DNA of 64,000 nt from Roseomonas gilardii subsp. gilardii. Its GTDB lineage: Bacteria > Pseudomonadota > Alphaproteobacteria > Acetobacterales > Acetobacteraceae. Positions within the stretch are counted from its first letter, which is position 1. Every line of letters begins with the position of its first letter. Shown here in pieces: positions 28,667 through 36,076 of this stretch. A program made the translations under genes and the position numbers. The DNA lies in assembly GCF_023078375.1 (NCBI RefSeq), contig NZ_CP095554.1, positions 1,972,501-2,036,500 of the forward strand, given 5' to 3'. The notes beneath the pieces were generated by a model. It worked only from the letters and a program-made list of their open reading frames with translations. It was not told where the DNA came from and did no database searches.

Positions 28667-29044
28667 TCAGCCGCCATCGCGGTCCGCGCGGAAGCGGGCC
28701 GCGACCACGGCGTCCTGGCGCAGAGCCCCCTCCAGCATGGCGGCAACCTCCGGCGTATCCGCCAGGGCGAGGACCCGGTCGAACCAGGGGCAGACACCGC
28801 GCACCCGGTCCAGGAAAAGGCGATCCAGCGCCTGGGCCAGCGGGGAACGGCCGCCGCAGCAGGCACAGGCCACGGCATGGGTGGCGAAGGGCTGGAAGCG
28901 GGCCGTGGCCACCGGCCCGTCGAGGTCCGGGGCGGCCTCCGGCAGCAGCAGTGCGGCGGGCGGCCCCGCGCGCAGCGCCTGCCGCAGCCCGGCGGTGTCC
29001 GGCAGCGGCAACAGGGGGATGCGGGCGTCGAGGGTCCAGGCCAT
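28667..29044 (-). CDS. CobW-like protein fragment lacking the P-loop
   Basis: 125 residues. The middle, HAVACACCGGRSPLAQALDR then LFLDRVRG and FDRVLALADTPEV, matches CobW/ZNG-type GTPases around their CxCC metal motif (there CLCCTVRGDL...FLRRxRGExPxFDRV...LADPAP) and ends VVAARFRAD as they do (DPVVAARYRLDG). The N-terminus, where CobW proteins have GxxGxGKT, reads IPLLPLPDTAGL and has no Walker A, so it cannot be a normal GTPase. It could be a small metal-binding relative or a decayed CobW. Divergent from the ArsR-methyltransferase gene across a 22-bp palindrome. Confidence 0.55.
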   Translation of the reverse strand: MAWTLDARIPLLPLPDTAGLRQALRAGPPAALLLPEAAPDLDGPVATARFQPFATHAVACACCGGRSPLAQALDRLFLDRVRGVCPWFDRVLALADTPEVAAMLEGALRQDAVVAARFRADRDGG

Positions 29045-29050
29045 CTGCTG

Positions 29051-29072
29051 GACATAAGGATATCTTTATGTC
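29051..29072. promoter_or_regulatory. 22-bp operator-like palindrome, methionine block
   Basis: Halves GACATAAGGAT and ATCTTTATGTC are complementary except for one pair. It sits 6 bp from one start codon and 11 bp from the other in a divergent promoter, and is strikingly A+T-rich. ArsR-family repressors bind such sites, and the adjacent gene is an ArsR-methyltransferase coupled to metH. Confidence 0.75.
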
Positions 29073-29083
29073 ATTGTCCAGCC

Positions 29084-30063
29084 GTGGATGAACTTCTCGC
29101 CCAACTCCGTGCCGCTGCCGAGCCGACGCGCCTGCGCCTCCTGGCGCTCTGCGCCCGGGGTGCCTGGTGCGTGTCCGATCTCTGCGCCCTGCTCGGGCAG
29201 TCCCAGCCCCGCCTGTCGCGCCATCTGCGCCTGCTGACCGAGGCCGGGCTGCTGGACCGGATGCCCGAGGGGGCGAATGTCTATTTCCAGGTGCCCGCCG
29301 AGGCTGGCCTCGCCCATATGATCGTGGCCCGCCTGCCGGAAGAGGATGCGCAGCTTGCCGCCGACCGGCGCGCCGCCGCGCGGCTGGCGGCGGAGCGGGC
29401 GCGCGAGGCCTCCGAGACCTTCCAACGCCAGGGTTCGGACTGGGATGAGATGCGCGCCCTCGGCCTACCAGCTGCGGCCATCGAGGCGGCGCTGCTGGAT
29501 GCCCTGCCGGAGCATCCCGGGCGCCTGCTGGATATCGGCACCGGCACTGGCCGCCTGCTGGAACTGACCGCCGGCCGGGCCGGGACCGCCCCCGAGATCG
29601 CGCTGGGCGTCGATGCCTCCCGCGCCATGCTGGCCCTGGCCCGCGCCCGTCTGTCTGAGCGCGGCCTGGCGCAGCGCTGCGCGGTGCGGCAGGCGGACAT
29701 GTACCGGCTGCCGATCGCCGATGCCTCCTTCGACACCGTGACGTTGCAGATGGTGCTGCATTATGCCGAGGACCCGGCCGCCGTGCTGGCCGAGGCGGCA
29801 CGGGTGCTGGCGCCCGGCGGGCGGCTGCTGATCGCCGACCTCGCCCCGCATGAGCGGGGAGCTGATGGCGCGGCAGGCGCATCGTTGGCCCGGCTTCGAC
29901 GATGCCCAGGTCGCCGGCTGGCTCGGCGCTGCCGGCTGCGCCCCGCTTCCCGCCCGGACCGCGGCCAGGGGGGGAAGGGGCACTGGAAGTGCGCCTCTGG
30001 CCCGCCACCCGCCTGCCCGCCGACCATTCCCTTTCCGTGCCCGCCGCAACCGAGGCTCCGTGA
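29084..30063 (+). pseudogene. ArsR-type regulator fused to SAM-dependent methyltransferase, frameshifted as read
   Basis: N-terminal ArsR winged helix (residues about 1-90; recognition helix in LGQSQPRLSRHLRLLTEAGLL), then a class I methyltransferase domain with LLDIGTGTGRLLEL, a DASRAML stretch and LQMVLHYAEDPAAVLAEA. No ArsR metal-box CxC is present, so SAM/SAH sensing is likelier than metal sensing (inference from SahR-like regulators). The GTG at 29084 follows the palindrome closely. Two one-G insertions, in the four-G run at 29856-29859 and the seven-G run at 29968-29974, break the frame; removing both gives 325 residues ending in a TGATG overlap with metH. Confidence 0.85.
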
Positions 30064-33000
30064 TGTCCCGTCCCCACCTGCTCGAGGCCCTGCGCGACCG
30101 CGTTCTGCTCTGTGATGGCGGCATGGGCTCGCGCGTGCAGGCGCTCACCCTGGATGTCGAGAAGGACTACTGGGGCAAGGAGAACTGCACCGAGGTGCTG
30201 AACCTTTCCCGCCCCGATCTCGTGCGCGAGATCCATCGCGGCTACTACGAGGCCGGGTCGGACATGGTGCTGACCAACAGCTTCGGCGGATCGCCCATCA
30301 CGCTGGAGGAGTTCGAGCTGGGCGCGCGGGCCTTCGAGATCAACAAGCTCTCGGTGGAACTGGCGCGCGAGGCGGCGGAGAGCTTCGCCGACGGGCGGCA
30401 CCGCTGGGTGATCGGCGATATCGGCCCCGGCACCAAGCTGCCGAGCCTCGGCCATATCGACTACGACACGCTGGAGGCCGCGCTGCTGGAGCAGTGCCGC
30501 GGGCTGATCGCCGGCGGTGCAGACGCGCTGCTGACCGAGACCAACCAGGACACGCTGTTCATCAAGGCGGCCGTCAACGCCGCCAAGGCGGCGAAGCGCG
30601 AGGCGGGGAGCGACATCCCCATCTTCGTGCAGGTGACGGTGGAGACCACCGGCACGCTGCTGGTCGGCCCCGACATCGCCGCCGCCGCCACGGTGGTCGA
30701 CGCGCTGGACGTGCCGCTGATCGGCCTCAACTGCGCCACCGGGCCGCAGGAGATGGCGGAGCATGTGCGCTATCTCGCCGGGTCCTGGCGCGGACTGATC
30801 TCGGTGCAGCCCAATGCCGGCCTGCCGGAGCTGGTGGACGGCAAGACGCATTACCCGCTGGGTGCGGCGGAGATGGCGAGCTGGATGGAGCGCTTCGTCA
30901 CCGAGGACGGGGTGAACCTGATCGGCGGCTGCTGCGGCACCTCCACCCCGCATATCCAGGCGCTGGACGCGATGCTGCGCAAGCATGGCGGCGCCGCGCA
31001 CCGGCCCGCGCCGGTGCCCCGCAGGCCCGTCTGGGTGCCCTCCGTCGCCAGCCTCTACGGCGCCACGGCGCTGCGGCAGGAGAACGCCTATTTCTCCATC
31101 GGCGAGCGCTGCAACGCCAATGGCTCCAAGGCCTGGCGCGAGCGGCAGGCGGCGCATGACTGGGACGGCTGCGTCGCCATGGGGCGGGAGCAGGTGGGGG
31201 AGGGCTCGAACTCCCTCGACATCTGCACCGCCTTCGTCGGCCGGGATGAGATGGCCGAGATGAACGAGGTCGTCCGCCGCTTCACCGGCAGCGTGAACGC
31301 GCCGCTGGTGATCGATTCCACCGAGACGCCGGTGATCGAGGCGGCGCTGAAGCTGCATGGCGGCAAGCCGATCATCAACTCGATCAACTTCGAGGATGGC
31401 GAGGGGCATGCGACGGACCGCATGATCCTGGCGAAGAGGTTCGGCACCGCCGTGATCGCGCTGACCATCGACGAGGTCGGCATGGCGAAGACGGCGGAGG
31501 ACAAGCTCCGCATCGCCGAGCGGCTGGTGGATTTCGCCTGCAACCGGCACGGCTTGCCGCAGTCGGACCTGATGATCGATCCGCTGACCTTCACCATCGC
31601 CACGGGCAACGAGGACGACCGCAAGCTCGGCCTCTGGACGCTGGAAGGCATCCGCATGATCCGGGAGAAGTTCCCGGACATCCAGATCATCCTGGGCCTG
31701 AGCAACATCTCCTTCGGCCTGAACCCGGCGGCGCGGCATGTGCTGAACTCGGTCTTCCTGGACCATGCGGTGAAGGCGGGGATGACCGGCGCCATCGTGC
31801 ATGTCAGCAAGATCAAGCCGCTGCACCTGATCCCGCCGGAGGAGGTGAAGGTCGCCGAGGACCTGATCTACGACCGGCGCGCCGAGGGCTACGACCCGCT
31901 GCAGAAGCTGCTGGAGATGTTCCAGGGCCGCAAGGCTGCGGAGGTGGGCGCGCGCAAGAAGGCCGAGACGGTCGAGGGGCGGCTGAAGGAGCGGATCGTC
32001 GATGGCGACCGCAAGGGGCTGGAGGAGGACCTCGCCGCCGCCATGGCCGCCGGGCACACGCCGCTCGCCATCATCAACGAGCTGCTGCTGGACGGCATGA
32101 AGACGGTGGGCGAGCTGTTCGGCGCCGGCAAGATGCAGCTCCCCTTCGTGCTGCAATCCGCCGAGACGATGAAATCCGCGGTCGCCTGGCTGGAGCCGCA
32201 TATGGAGCGGACCGAGGGCCAGGAGAAAGGCACCATCGTCCTCGCGACCGTGAAGGGCGACGTGCATGACATCGGCAAGAACCTCGTCGACATCATCCTG
32301 ACCAACAACGGCTACAAAGTCGTCAATCTCGGCATCAAGGTGCCGTTGCAGCAGATGGTGGAGGCGGTGCGGCAGCACCGCGCCAACGCCATCGGCATGT
32401 CCGGCCTGCTGGTGAAGTCCACCGTGGTGATGCGCGAGAACCTGGAGGAGATGGCGCGCCAGGGGCTGGAGGTCCCGGTGCTGCTCGGCGGGGCGGCGCT
32501 GACGCGGAACTATGTCGAGGATGATTGCGTCCGCGCCTATGCGAAGGACGGGACGACGGGCCGCGTCGCCTATGCCCGGGATGCCTTCGACGGGCTGCAC
32601 CTGATGGACCGGGTGATGGGCAACGACTTCGACGGCTATCTCGCCGCCTTGCAGGCGCGCCGGGTGGGCAAGTCGAAGAACGAGAAGCGCACGCTCGGCG
32701 TCGCGGACCCGCGCGGCTTCGCGCCCGTGGACGTCAACGAGGCCCAGGCGCGCCGGAAGCGGGTGACGGAGGGCGAGGCGGTGCCGGTCCCGCCCTTCTG
32801 GGGCGCGCGGGTGGTGGAGGCCCCGCCCAAGGCGATCATCCCCTTCATCAACGAGCGCTCGCTCTACCAGTTCCAGTGGGGCTTCCGGAAGCAGGGCCGC
32901 TCGCTGGAGGATTTCCTCGGCTGGGCCAAGCAGGAGCTGCGCCCGGTGCTCAAGCGCATGCTGGCGCTGACGGAGCAGGAGAACATCCTCCATCCGCAGG

Positions 33001-33575
33001 CCATCTACGGCTACTGGAAATGCGCGGGGCAGGGGAACGACCTGATCCTGTTCGAGGAGGACGGCGTGACCGAGGCCTGGCGCGTCACCCTGCCGCGCCA
33101 GCCGAAGCAGGATGGCGAGTGCATCGCGGATTTCGTGCGCGACGTGGAGGAAGGGCCGGAGCACCGCGACGTCATCGGCCTGCAGGTCGTGACGGTGGGG
33201 CAGAGGGCCTCCGACGTGGCGCGGGAATGGTTCGAGGGCAACCGCTACCAGGACTATCTCTATCTGCACGGGTTGTCCGTGGAGATGGCCGAGGCGATGG
33301 CAGAGTATGTCCACAAGCGCATCCGCGCCGAATGGGGCTATGCCGGGGAGGATGACCGCGACATGGACCGGATGCTGCAACAGGGCTACCGGGGCGGCCG
33401 CTATTCCTTCGGCTATCCGGCCTGCCCGCGGCTGGAGGACCAGGAAGGGCTGCTGAAGCTGCTGGGCGCCGAACGGATCGGGGTGAGCCTGTCGGACGAG
33501 CATCAGCTTCATCCGGAGCAGTCAACCTCCGCGATCGTGTTGCACCACCCCCGCGCGAAATACTTCTCAGTTTGA
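30063..33575 (+). CDS. metH: cobalamin-dependent methionine synthase
   Basis: Transfers methyl from 5-methyl-tetrahydrofolate to homocysteine through methylcobalamin. 1170 residues, all four modules in order: homocysteine domain (1-310; LLCDGGMGS, zinc site GGCCGTSTPHI), pterin domain (about 345-620; FSIGERCNANGSKAWRE), B12 domain (about 640-860; axial His in DVHDIGKN near residue 735) and the SAM-dependent reactivation domain (about 900-1170; GRYSFGYPACP). The ATG at 30063 overlaps the stop of the ArsR-methyltransferase gene. The same block holds a cob(I)alamin adenosyltransferase. No metF is in the window. Confidence 0.97.
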   Translation: MSRPHLLEALRDRVLLCDGGMGSRVQALTLDVEKDYWGKENCTEVLNLSRPDLVREIHRGYYEAGSDMVLTNSFGGSPITLEEFELGARAFEINKLSVELAREAAESFADGRHRWVIGDIGPGTKLPSLGHIDYDTLEAALLEQCRGLIAGGADALLTETNQDTLFIKAAVNAAKAAKREAGSDIPIFVQVTVETTGTLLVGPDIAAAATVVDALDVPLIGLNCATGPQEMAEHVRYLAGSWRGLISVQPNAGLPELVDGKTHYPLGAAEMASWMERFVTEDGVNLIGGCCGTSTPHIQALDAMLRKHGGAAHRPAPVPRRPVWVPSVASLYGATALRQENAYFSIGERCNANGSKAWRERQAAHDWDGCVAMGREQVGEGSNSLDICTAFVGRDEMAEMNEVVRRFTGSVNAPLVIDSTETPVIEAALKLHGGKPIINSINFEDGEGHATDRMILAKRFGTAVIALTIDEVGMAKTAEDKLRIAERLVDFACNRHGLPQSDLMIDPLTFTIATGNEDDRKLGLWTLEGIRMIREKFPDIQIILGLSNISFGLNPAARHVLNSVFLDHAVKAGMTGAIVHVSKIKPLHLIPPEEVKVAEDLIYDRRAEGYDPLQKLLEMFQGRKAAEVGARKKAETVEGRLKERIVDGDRKGLEEDLAAAMAAGHTPLAIINELLLDGMKTVGELFGAGKMQLPFVLQSAETMKSAVAWLEPHMERTEGQEKGTIVLATVKGDVHDIGKNLVDIILTNNGYKVVNLGIKVPLQQMVEAVRQHRANAIGMSGLLVKSTVVMRENLEEMARQGLEVPVLLGGAALTRNYVEDDCVRAYAKDGTTGRVAYARDAFDGLHLMDRVMGNDFDGYLAALQARRVGKSKNEKRTLGVADPRGFAPVDVNEAQARRKRVTEGEAVPVPPFWGARVVEAPPKAIIPFINERSLYQFQWGFRKQGRSLEDFLGWAKQELRPVLKRMLALTEQENILHPQAIYGYWKCAGQGNDLILFEEDGVTEAWRVTLPRQPKQDGECIADFVRDVEEGPEHRDVIGLQVVTVGQRASDVAREWFEGNRYQDYLYLHGLSVEMAEAMAEYVHKRIRAEWGYAGEDDRDMDRMLQQGYRGGRYSFGYPACPRLEDQEGLLKLLGAERIGVSLSDEHQLHPEQSTSAIVLHHPRAKYFSV

Positions 33576-34528: not shown

Positions 34529-35484
34529 ATGAGGGCGCTGCGCCCCCTGCCGGGACGGACCGCCTGGGCGTTGCGTCCGGGGGGACGGCCTCCACGCCGG
34601 GCTGCCGGCCGTTCCCCGGCCTGCCTCCCCGCGGACGTCCCCATTTGGGCGCCGCCGCTTTCGCTGCTGCTGCATGGCATCGCGCTGGCGGCGCTGCTGG
34701 GGCTGCTGACGCCGGAGGCGGTGCATGAGCCGGTGCGGATGACCGGCATCCCCCTGGTCTGGGTCGGGGAGGGGGAGGGCAGCAGCGCCCCGCGCCTCGC
34801 CGAACTGCCACCCCCGGTGGCGGCGGCCCCGCCCGAGGCGCCGGAGACCCCGCCCGTGCCGCCAACCCCAGACGCCGCGCCCGTGCCGCCCCTGGCCCAG
34901 GCCGCCCCGGCGCCCGGCATGGAGGCCCCGCCTGCCATGGAGACGGGGAACCTCCCCCTGCCGCCTCCTGATGCGCCGGTGCCCGTGACCTCGCCGGTCC
35001 CGGCGGTGGGGACCTCACCGAAGCCCCTGGACGACCTGCCCCTGCCGCCACCGCCGCCCAGCCCGCCGCAGCGCCGTCCCGCGCCGCCGCAACCGCCCGC
35101 CCAGGCCGCGCCGTCGCCCGATCCGGGGCAGGCGAAGCTGGCGCTCGATGCCTCTGTGGGCGGCCTGCGGCTCGGCGCCGGCAGCGGGGGCATTCCGGGG
35201 AAAGCCGTGGCCCGGCCATGCCCGCTGCGGGCTGCGCCGAAGCCATCGGCCTGCCGCCGGGCGGGGCCGGGCACCACAATGCGGGTTTCGTCGGGCTGCG
35301 GCTGCGCCTGTCCGACGATGGCCGGGTGGTGGAGGCCAGGGTAGCAGTGAGCAGCGGCTTCCCCGCGCTGGACGACTGGGCCCGGACGCGGATCAAGCGC
35401 TGCCGCTTCACCCCCGCCCTGCGCGATGGCCGCCCGGTCTGGTCGAGCTACAACACCTCCGTCTATTTCGATGAAGCCCACTGA
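34529..35484 (+). pseudogene. tonB: TonB family protein, frameshifted before the C-terminal domain
   Basis: Links the proton-motive force to TonB-dependent outer-membrane receptors. Order: Arg-rich N-terminus, one membrane helix (about residues 39-61, PPLSLLLHGIALAALLGLL), a long Pro-rich periplasmic linker, then the TonB C-terminal fold (GLRLRLSDDGRVVEARVAVSS ... RCRFTPALRDGRPVWSSYNTSVYF). The last 90 residues are in another frame; one base is missing between about 35186 and 35218, with G runs at 35186-35190 and 35197-35200. Repaired length 318 residues. No exbBD genes nearby. Confidence 0.8.
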
Positions 35485-35515
35485 TTCTGGGCCCACTGAC
35501 CCTGGAGAAGCCCTC

Positions 35516-36076
35516 ATGGTGAAGCTCGACGTCATCACCACGCGCGGCGGCGATGGCGGGGAAACCTCGCTGGGCGATGGCACGCGGCTCCGCAAGGATG
35601 CGCTGCGGATCGCCGTGATCGGCACGGTGGATGAGCTGAATGCCTGCCTGGGCCTGGTCCGGCTGCACACGGGCAGGCTGCGGGAGGCGGATGCCATGCT
35701 GGCCCGCCTGCAGAACGACCTCTTCGATCTGGGCGCCGATCTTGCCGTGCCCGGCGCCGATCCCGGCCGGCTGCGGATCAGCGACCGGCAATGCGCCCGG
35801 CTGGAGGCGGAGGTGGCGGCCATGAACGCCGCGATCCCGCCGCTACGCTCCTTCATCCTGCCCGGCGGCACGCCGGGGGCGGCGCAGGCCCATCTGGCGC
35901 GCACCGTGGCACGGCGGGCGGAGCGCGAATTCGTGCAGCTCGCCAGCCAGGAGGTTCTGAATCCGGCGGCGCTGCGCTATCTGAACCGGATGTCTGATCA
36001 CCTCTTCGTTATGGCGCGCCACCTGAATGAGGACGGGGCACGCGATGTCCTGTGGATTCCAGGGCAGAATCATTAA
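35516..36076 (+). CDS. cob(I)yrinic acid a,c-diamide/cob(I)alamin adenosyltransferase, PduO type
   Basis: Moves the adenosyl group of ATP to cob(I)alamin, giving adenosylcobalamin. 186 residues, five-helix PduO/MMAB family: ATP-binding TTRGGDGGETSLGDGTRLRKD, TVDELNACLGLVRLH, FILPGG, and the RTVARRAERE helix with catalytic Arg, ending LNRMSDHLFVMAR. The ATG at 35516 follows the TonB gene by 31 bp, so the two may be co-transcribed. It fits the B12-dependent MetH upstream, although MetH itself uses methylcobalamin. Confidence 0.93.
   Translation: MVKLDVITTRGGDGGETSLGDGTRLRKDALRIAVIGTVDELNACLGLVRLHTGRLREADAMLARLQNDLFDLGADLAVPGADPGRLRISDRQCARLEAEVAAMNAAIPPLRSFILPGGTPGAAQAHLARTVARRAEREFVQLASQEVLNPAALRYLNRMSDHLFVMARHLNEDGARDVLWIPGQNH

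Follow-up and report, generated by a model that had tools for sequence, protein, structure and literature searches.

The palindrome between sahR and its divergently oriented neighbor is, as judged from its conservation and its recurrence, a predicted SahR-type operator, and it is situated in what is very probably an autoregulatory locus of SahR that controls metH, ahcY and metE. The regulatory part of this finding is ordinary and largely known already, SahR having been described in Proteobacteria, and it adds one more lineage in which such a repressor presumably responds to SAH and tunes the SAM cycle. The new part is the gene on the other side of the operator, whose product belongs to an undescribed, MetH-linked family of small proteins that has neither a Pfam nor an NCBIfam name and is worth following. 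All positions refer to the window, the whole stretch of 64,000 nucleotides of Roseomonas gilardii subsp. gilardii DNA that was analysed.

SahR, which combines an ArsR-type DNA-binding domain with a methyltransferase-like sensor domain, would bind the palindrome and block both divergent promoters. A high level of SAH would free the protein from this site, and sahR-metH, the divergent gene, ahcY and metE would be induced. Note that the response to SAH and the repression are taken from the literature on the family, while operator, conservation, recurrence and gene order constitute the sequence evidence.

The operator and its genomic copies

The palindrome (29051-29072) is an inverted repeat of 22 bp, composed of two arms of 11 bp with a spacer of 0, that is 91% complementary and contains one mismatched pair, just as an earlier note on this DNA had described it between the divergent genes. 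It is housed in the intergenic gap of 39 bp between the two start codons, 6 bp from the ATG of the minus-strand gene (29042-29044) and 11 bp from the GTG of sahR (29084). With up to three mismatches, the 4.62-Mb genome contains the full 22 bp only once, and a control search with the reversed pattern yielded 0 matches. A core of 16 positions, ATAAAGATATCTTTAT, is present upstream of sahR in every one of the best 80 of 204 loci encoding a SahR relative, with 14-16 of the 16 positions matching. Three columns outside the dyad pairing are also conserved in these 80 of 204 loci, with T at -5 relative to the core in 79 loci, A at +19 in 74 and T at +20 in 62, and from them we infer a sahR promoter on the plus strand at 29049-29077, in which a TRGACA-like hexamer (29049-29054) is separated by 17 bp from a weak -10 hexamer (29072-29077). 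The sahR mRNA would be leaderless, with transcription starting from or near the start codon and the operator lying within the promoter, and the geometry fits a mode of action in which this SahR would bind to 29051-29072 and repress in both directions.

In the genome of origin the core is found at three places when up to three mismatches are allowed, namely at the sahR locus, immediately ahead of ahcY, and in the region that separates a dihydroorotase gene from metE, and the reversed core is absent at the same threshold. The search near ahcY, metK and metF that the earlier note had proposed thus led to a divided outcome: a site exists at ahcY, and in addition at metE, but none was found at metK or metF of this genome, and at the loci of the latter two genes (L085, L086) no weaker site appeared even when as many as 6 mismatches were tolerated and 6 or more of the 8 pairs required. 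In the part of Leyn et al. 2014 (PMC4239095) that defines it, the core SahR regulon comprises genes regulated in more than 70% of the genomes with SahR, so that single absences, here those of metK and metF, do occur.

Across 15 genomes of the genus, searched with up to two mismatches, the core has 42 sites and the reversed pattern 0. Further copies near methionine-cycle genes, on which the earlier note had made its proposal depend, do exist, and 40 of the 42 sites precede sahR, ahcY, metE or metH. SahR-like control of metH is well supported by the operator's presence in all of the best 80 of 204 loci and by its recurrence before ahcY and metE. Fifteen of the genus sites, one per genome, have sahR and the divergent gene as neighbors, and ahcY has a site in 14 of the 15 genomes (it is absent in G013). 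Nine sites belong to metE, which tblastn identified in six cases; in the other three the gene was recognized by an open frame facing that of dihydroorotase. Two precede a free-standing metH (L108, L122), and in the genomes concerned (G005, G013) the sahR site is situated elsewhere, so that metH has kept or gained an operator after the separation; the last two sites (L111, L114) have no adjacent methionine gene. The names of ahcY, metE and metH were checked with NCBIfam at L002, L004, L103 and L108, including one of the three open-frame cases of metE.

At metE the operator stands directly ahead of a cobalamin riboswitch (RF00174), or slightly overlaps it, in nine of nine loci (L004, at 1501-1739, in the genome of origin, and L091, L095, L099, L103, L104, L117, L120 and L124 in others). 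The gene thus apparently answers to both SAH and B12.

The sahR reading frame and its junction with metH

The product of sahR (29084-30063, plus strand) contains an ArsR-type helix-turn-helix (Pfam HTH_5, E 6e-12) and a methyltransferase-like sensor domain (Methyltransf_11, E 1.2e-24) that is matched up to a first change of reading frame. In relatives this C-terminal domain is present at full length, and the class I methyltransferase domain of the sahR product itself carries the motif DIGTGTG. Both Pfam matches confirm the ArsR-methyltransferase recognized in the earlier note. The fusion, which that note presents as special, is probably how SahR is usually built: the original experimental paper on SahR reportedly describes the sensor domain as methylase-like, and if this is right the fusion seen here is the normal form.

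Between 29084 and 30063 the gene is not open in a single frame. The closest named relative is that of Roseomonas mucosa (L005, 95% identity over SahR residues 1-255), and its residues 1-259, 254-300 and 297-327 match three different frames, with changes at about 29.85 and 29.97 kb that are some 120 bp apart and lie inside 29840-29990, and the open frame that holds the start codon continues to 30115, beyond the start of metH. In 78 of the best 80 of 204 loci sahR is intact, with one frame of 305-327 amino acids, and in the other two it is cut by contig ends. The frame changes may be genuine or may stem from the assembly; provided that they are genuine, the SahR switch may fail in this strain. 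That the gene is a true pseudogene or an altered allele, with constitutive metH, ahcY and metE in this strain, nevertheless appears rather unlikely. In its favor, the two changes fall about 120 bp apart, and relative to L005 no frame-breaking gap occurs in the MFS gene, in metH or in the portion of the divergent gene that could be aligned. Against it, the portion of sahR ahead of the breaks is strongly constrained (dN/dS 0.07 against L005), the tail of the gene and the overlap of its stop with metH are preserved despite the changes, and both changes adjoin runs of G, a setting in which assemblies often go wrong.

The gene for the B12-dependent methionine synthase, metH (30063-33575, plus strand; TIGR02082, 1195.8 bits), has a start that overlaps the stop of sahR by one base at 30063. 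To this extent the coupling of the two genes given in the earlier note stands, but the sahR that ends at this stop is not one open frame. In 75 of the best 80 of 204 loci the start of metH is located between 4 bp inside and 74 bp past the sahR stop; in one locus (L046) it follows at 1,158 bp, and four of these 80 have no metH within the DNA examined. Downstream of metH, at 35426-36076, an open frame resembles, as judged from its translation, an ATP:cob(I)alamin adenosyltransferase, another B12 gene. In the comparison with L005, small gaps that are not a multiple of three also occur at 25.9-26.1, 26.6-26.7, 33.66, 35.2 and 35.49 kb.

A CobW-derived family beside metH

The divergent gene (28667-29044, minus strand) encodes a protein of 125 amino acids, derived from CobW/COG0523, that has no P-loop and keeps the CxCC motif with an invariant histidine four residues before it. 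It is found in 72 of the best 80 of 204 sahR loci, with 29-77 bp between its start codon and that of sahR in 71 of them and 818 bp in one (L050), and two of the eight loci without a match (L006, L015) are close to a contig end. Eleven positions are invariant in 73 sequences of the family (D6, R8, P10, H56, C60, C62, C63, A72, R80, F88 and D111), including all three cysteines of CxCC, and dN/dS values of 0.22-0.38 (eight comparisons, some repeating the same genome) indicate that the gene encodes a protein under selection.

None of the 73 members has a match over the cut-off in Pfam or NCBIfam; below it, cobW came up for one member (E 0.33) and the GTPase PRK11537 for another (E 0.0015). A search of solved structures with the family returned nothing up to E 10. 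Among 289 genomes of the class, 70 match the family profile at E <= 1e-6, and outside the genome of origin all of these matches are located in open frames of 269-788 amino acids (best E 1.8e-15, L241); the nine that were fetched (L241-L249) all carry GFLGSGKTT and CLCC. Within the order, L162 and L165 have Pfam matches to cobW and CobW_C. As evidenced by hhalign, the family profile aligns with seven CobW proteins over 74 columns (probability 96.2, E 2.6e-9). Against 18 CobW proteins it reaches 56 bits, with at most 6.0 for ten column-shuffled profiles and -1.3 for the reversed profile. The genome of origin also has four CobW proteins that are less closely related, and they score 9.6, 6.7, 2.2 and -0.5, at or near noise, which points to a kinship of the divergent gene with one branch of CobW.

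The family is colinear with COG0523/CobW proteins of the G3E family over a stretch that begins with the strand preceding the P-loop and stops just short of the VTTVDA strand, where the divergent protein ends, and it retains their CxCC. It differs from them in that the P-loop segment is deleted, ETTG is gone, NKxD and CobW_C are absent since the protein ends ahead of the NKxD region, the length is only about 125 residues and the gene lies mostly beside metH. Given the missing P-loop, NKxD and CobW_C, sequence comparison places the divergent protein as an offshoot of CobW/COG0523 rather than as a member of these GTPases. Another COG0523-like protein that lacks the GTPase motifs, Rv0106, is covered in a section of PMC2770081 and sets a precedent.

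In a sample of 150 genomes of the order the family profile matches 113, four of which (G033, G070, G103, G126) were set aside as full-length CobW proteins, with open frames of 339-643 amino acids away from metH, leaving 109. The gene metH is present in 129 of the 150 genomes, 127 of them with a match above the cut-off and 2 with a broken copy; SahR is encoded in 80 (E <= 1e-25). Divergent orientation to metH within 2.5 kb is found for 102 of the 109 copies, 41 with sahR in between and 61 without; in the latter 69-1,235 bp separate the matches, and in eight of them at least 785 bp, where an intervening element is possible. Of the remaining copies five are 8-21 kb from metH, one is far off and one lies on another contig. 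All 109 genomes with the divergent gene have metH, and none of the 21 without metH has the divergent gene (Fisher p 1.2e-14, kinship not corrected for), although 20 of the 129 metH genomes are devoid of it. When 45 loci of the divergent gene were checked for the operator, the 32 with sahR had a site with up to two mismatches, and in the 13 without sahR it was absent beside the divergent gene (in one of these, L175, a match with 4 mismatches lies about 1.4 kb away; L180 is one of the full-length CobW matches). The divergent gene thus follows metH, and the operator follows sahR. No riboswitch exceeded the Rfam gathering score between the divergent gene and metH in 15 loci where sahR is not in between, and the sole match in a run on 20 sources was the cobalamin riboswitch at metE (L004).

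The tight linkage to metH suggests a role of the divergent protein as a helper of MetH, in the handling of a metal or cofactor. MetH requires zinc as well as cobalamin, and with metH as the constant partner, loading or guarding this enzyme is the most economical guess. Having CxCC and a nearby invariant histidine but no P-loop, the protein could hold a metal without a nucleotide switch. In CobW, according to the passages of PMC7895991 that treat the metal site, GTP and Mg build a tight site, probably at CxCC, and the relevant portion of PMC2770081 places CxCC in switch I and presents MeaB, another G3E GTPase, as serving a B12 enzyme. By analogy only, the divergent protein resembles MeaB in being a protein of G3E type linked with a B12-dependent enzyme, in the case of MeaB methylmalonyl-CoA mutase, but MeaB is a working GTPase and the divergent protein has no nucleotide-binding loop. 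We tentatively consider it possible that the gene encodes a dedicated, GTP-independent partner of MetH whose CobW-type metal site loads or guards zinc or handles cobalamin, and that it is under the control of SAH and SahR in Roseomonas and its relatives and of other means elsewhere in the order. Among the papers listed by literature searches, in one of which the term 'MetH' also matched longer words, none ties a COG0523 protein to MetH.

It is unlikely that the gene is a decaying remnant of CobW without function, carried along by the neighboring promoter. Decay would agree with the loss of the P-loop and of the G domain's second half, with the lack of a name in family databases and with the 20 metH genomes that do without the gene, but not with the dN/dS range, with the eleven invariant positions that include the histidine and CxCC, or with the fact that 102 of 109 genomes keep the gene next to metH, in 61 cases without sahR in between. 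As a putative partner of MetH, the family offers a handle on how bacteria supply or protect this enzyme with its zinc and cobalamin, and it bears on whether a metallochaperone can work once its GTPase has been lost. The gene is small, conserved and easy to delete, which makes the question testable.

Relation to known SahR and SamR regulators

For SahR, the sections of PMC4239095 devoted to it describe a 20-bp palindrome and list sahR, ahcY, metH, metH2, metF and metK as targets. Among SahR genomes at large ahcY, metH, metF and metK are core targets, and metE has a site in some. A portion of PMC8877191 refers to work on Desulfovibrio in which operator binding depended on SAH, and gives signs that sahR is autoregulated. 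The present locus corresponds to SahR in the ArsR helix-turn-helix with its methyltransferase-like domain, in the geometry of autoregulation, in its targets ahcY, metH and metE, and in an operator ahead of sahR that forms a palindrome of about 20 bp, a likeness judged on length and position against the SahR sections of PMC4239095. It departs from SahR elsewhere in that the genome has no site at metK or metF, the CobW-derived divergent gene shares the operator, and sahR is frame-broken in this assembly. SamR of Xanthomonadales is likewise a SahR-like regulator co-localised with metH genes, but in the SamR passages of PMC4239095 its motif has 24 bp and its regulon is wider, including metK, with no ahcY target named there, whereas ahcY is a main target here.

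The earlier note's statement that metal-box cysteines are missing has to be corrected. Cys29 of SahR aligns with the cysteine of LCVGDL in the solved SmtB structure 1r1t and is a cysteine in 74 of 80 relatives, and residue 34, at or near the metal-box position of ArsR/SmtB, is one in 60 of 80 (the best 80 of 204 in both cases); we read the two residues as a relic or, possibly, as a second input. Very improbable is a regulator of the same target genes that senses SAM in the manner of SamR, or a metal or thiol state via Cys29 and Cys34: the sensor domain could bind either SAM or SAH, both cysteines are common and Cys29 is aligned with that of the SmtB metal box, and the SamR passages of Leyn et al. 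(PMC4239095) leave the effector of SamR open, but ahcY, the gene for SAH hydrolase, is a main target in 14 of the 15 genus genomes and fits SAH better than SAM, metK of this genome has no site while the SAM reading of SamR in those passages rests on metK, and neither cysteine is universal among the relatives. A metal-sensing ArsR is not favored because the targets are genes of the SAM cycle and the cysteines are not universal. In about 30 genomes of the order there is a SahR-like protein of more remote kinship (E about 1e-91 to 1e-76; for example G141:C6, G085:C1 and G030:C23), which lies away from metH wherever coordinates are given.
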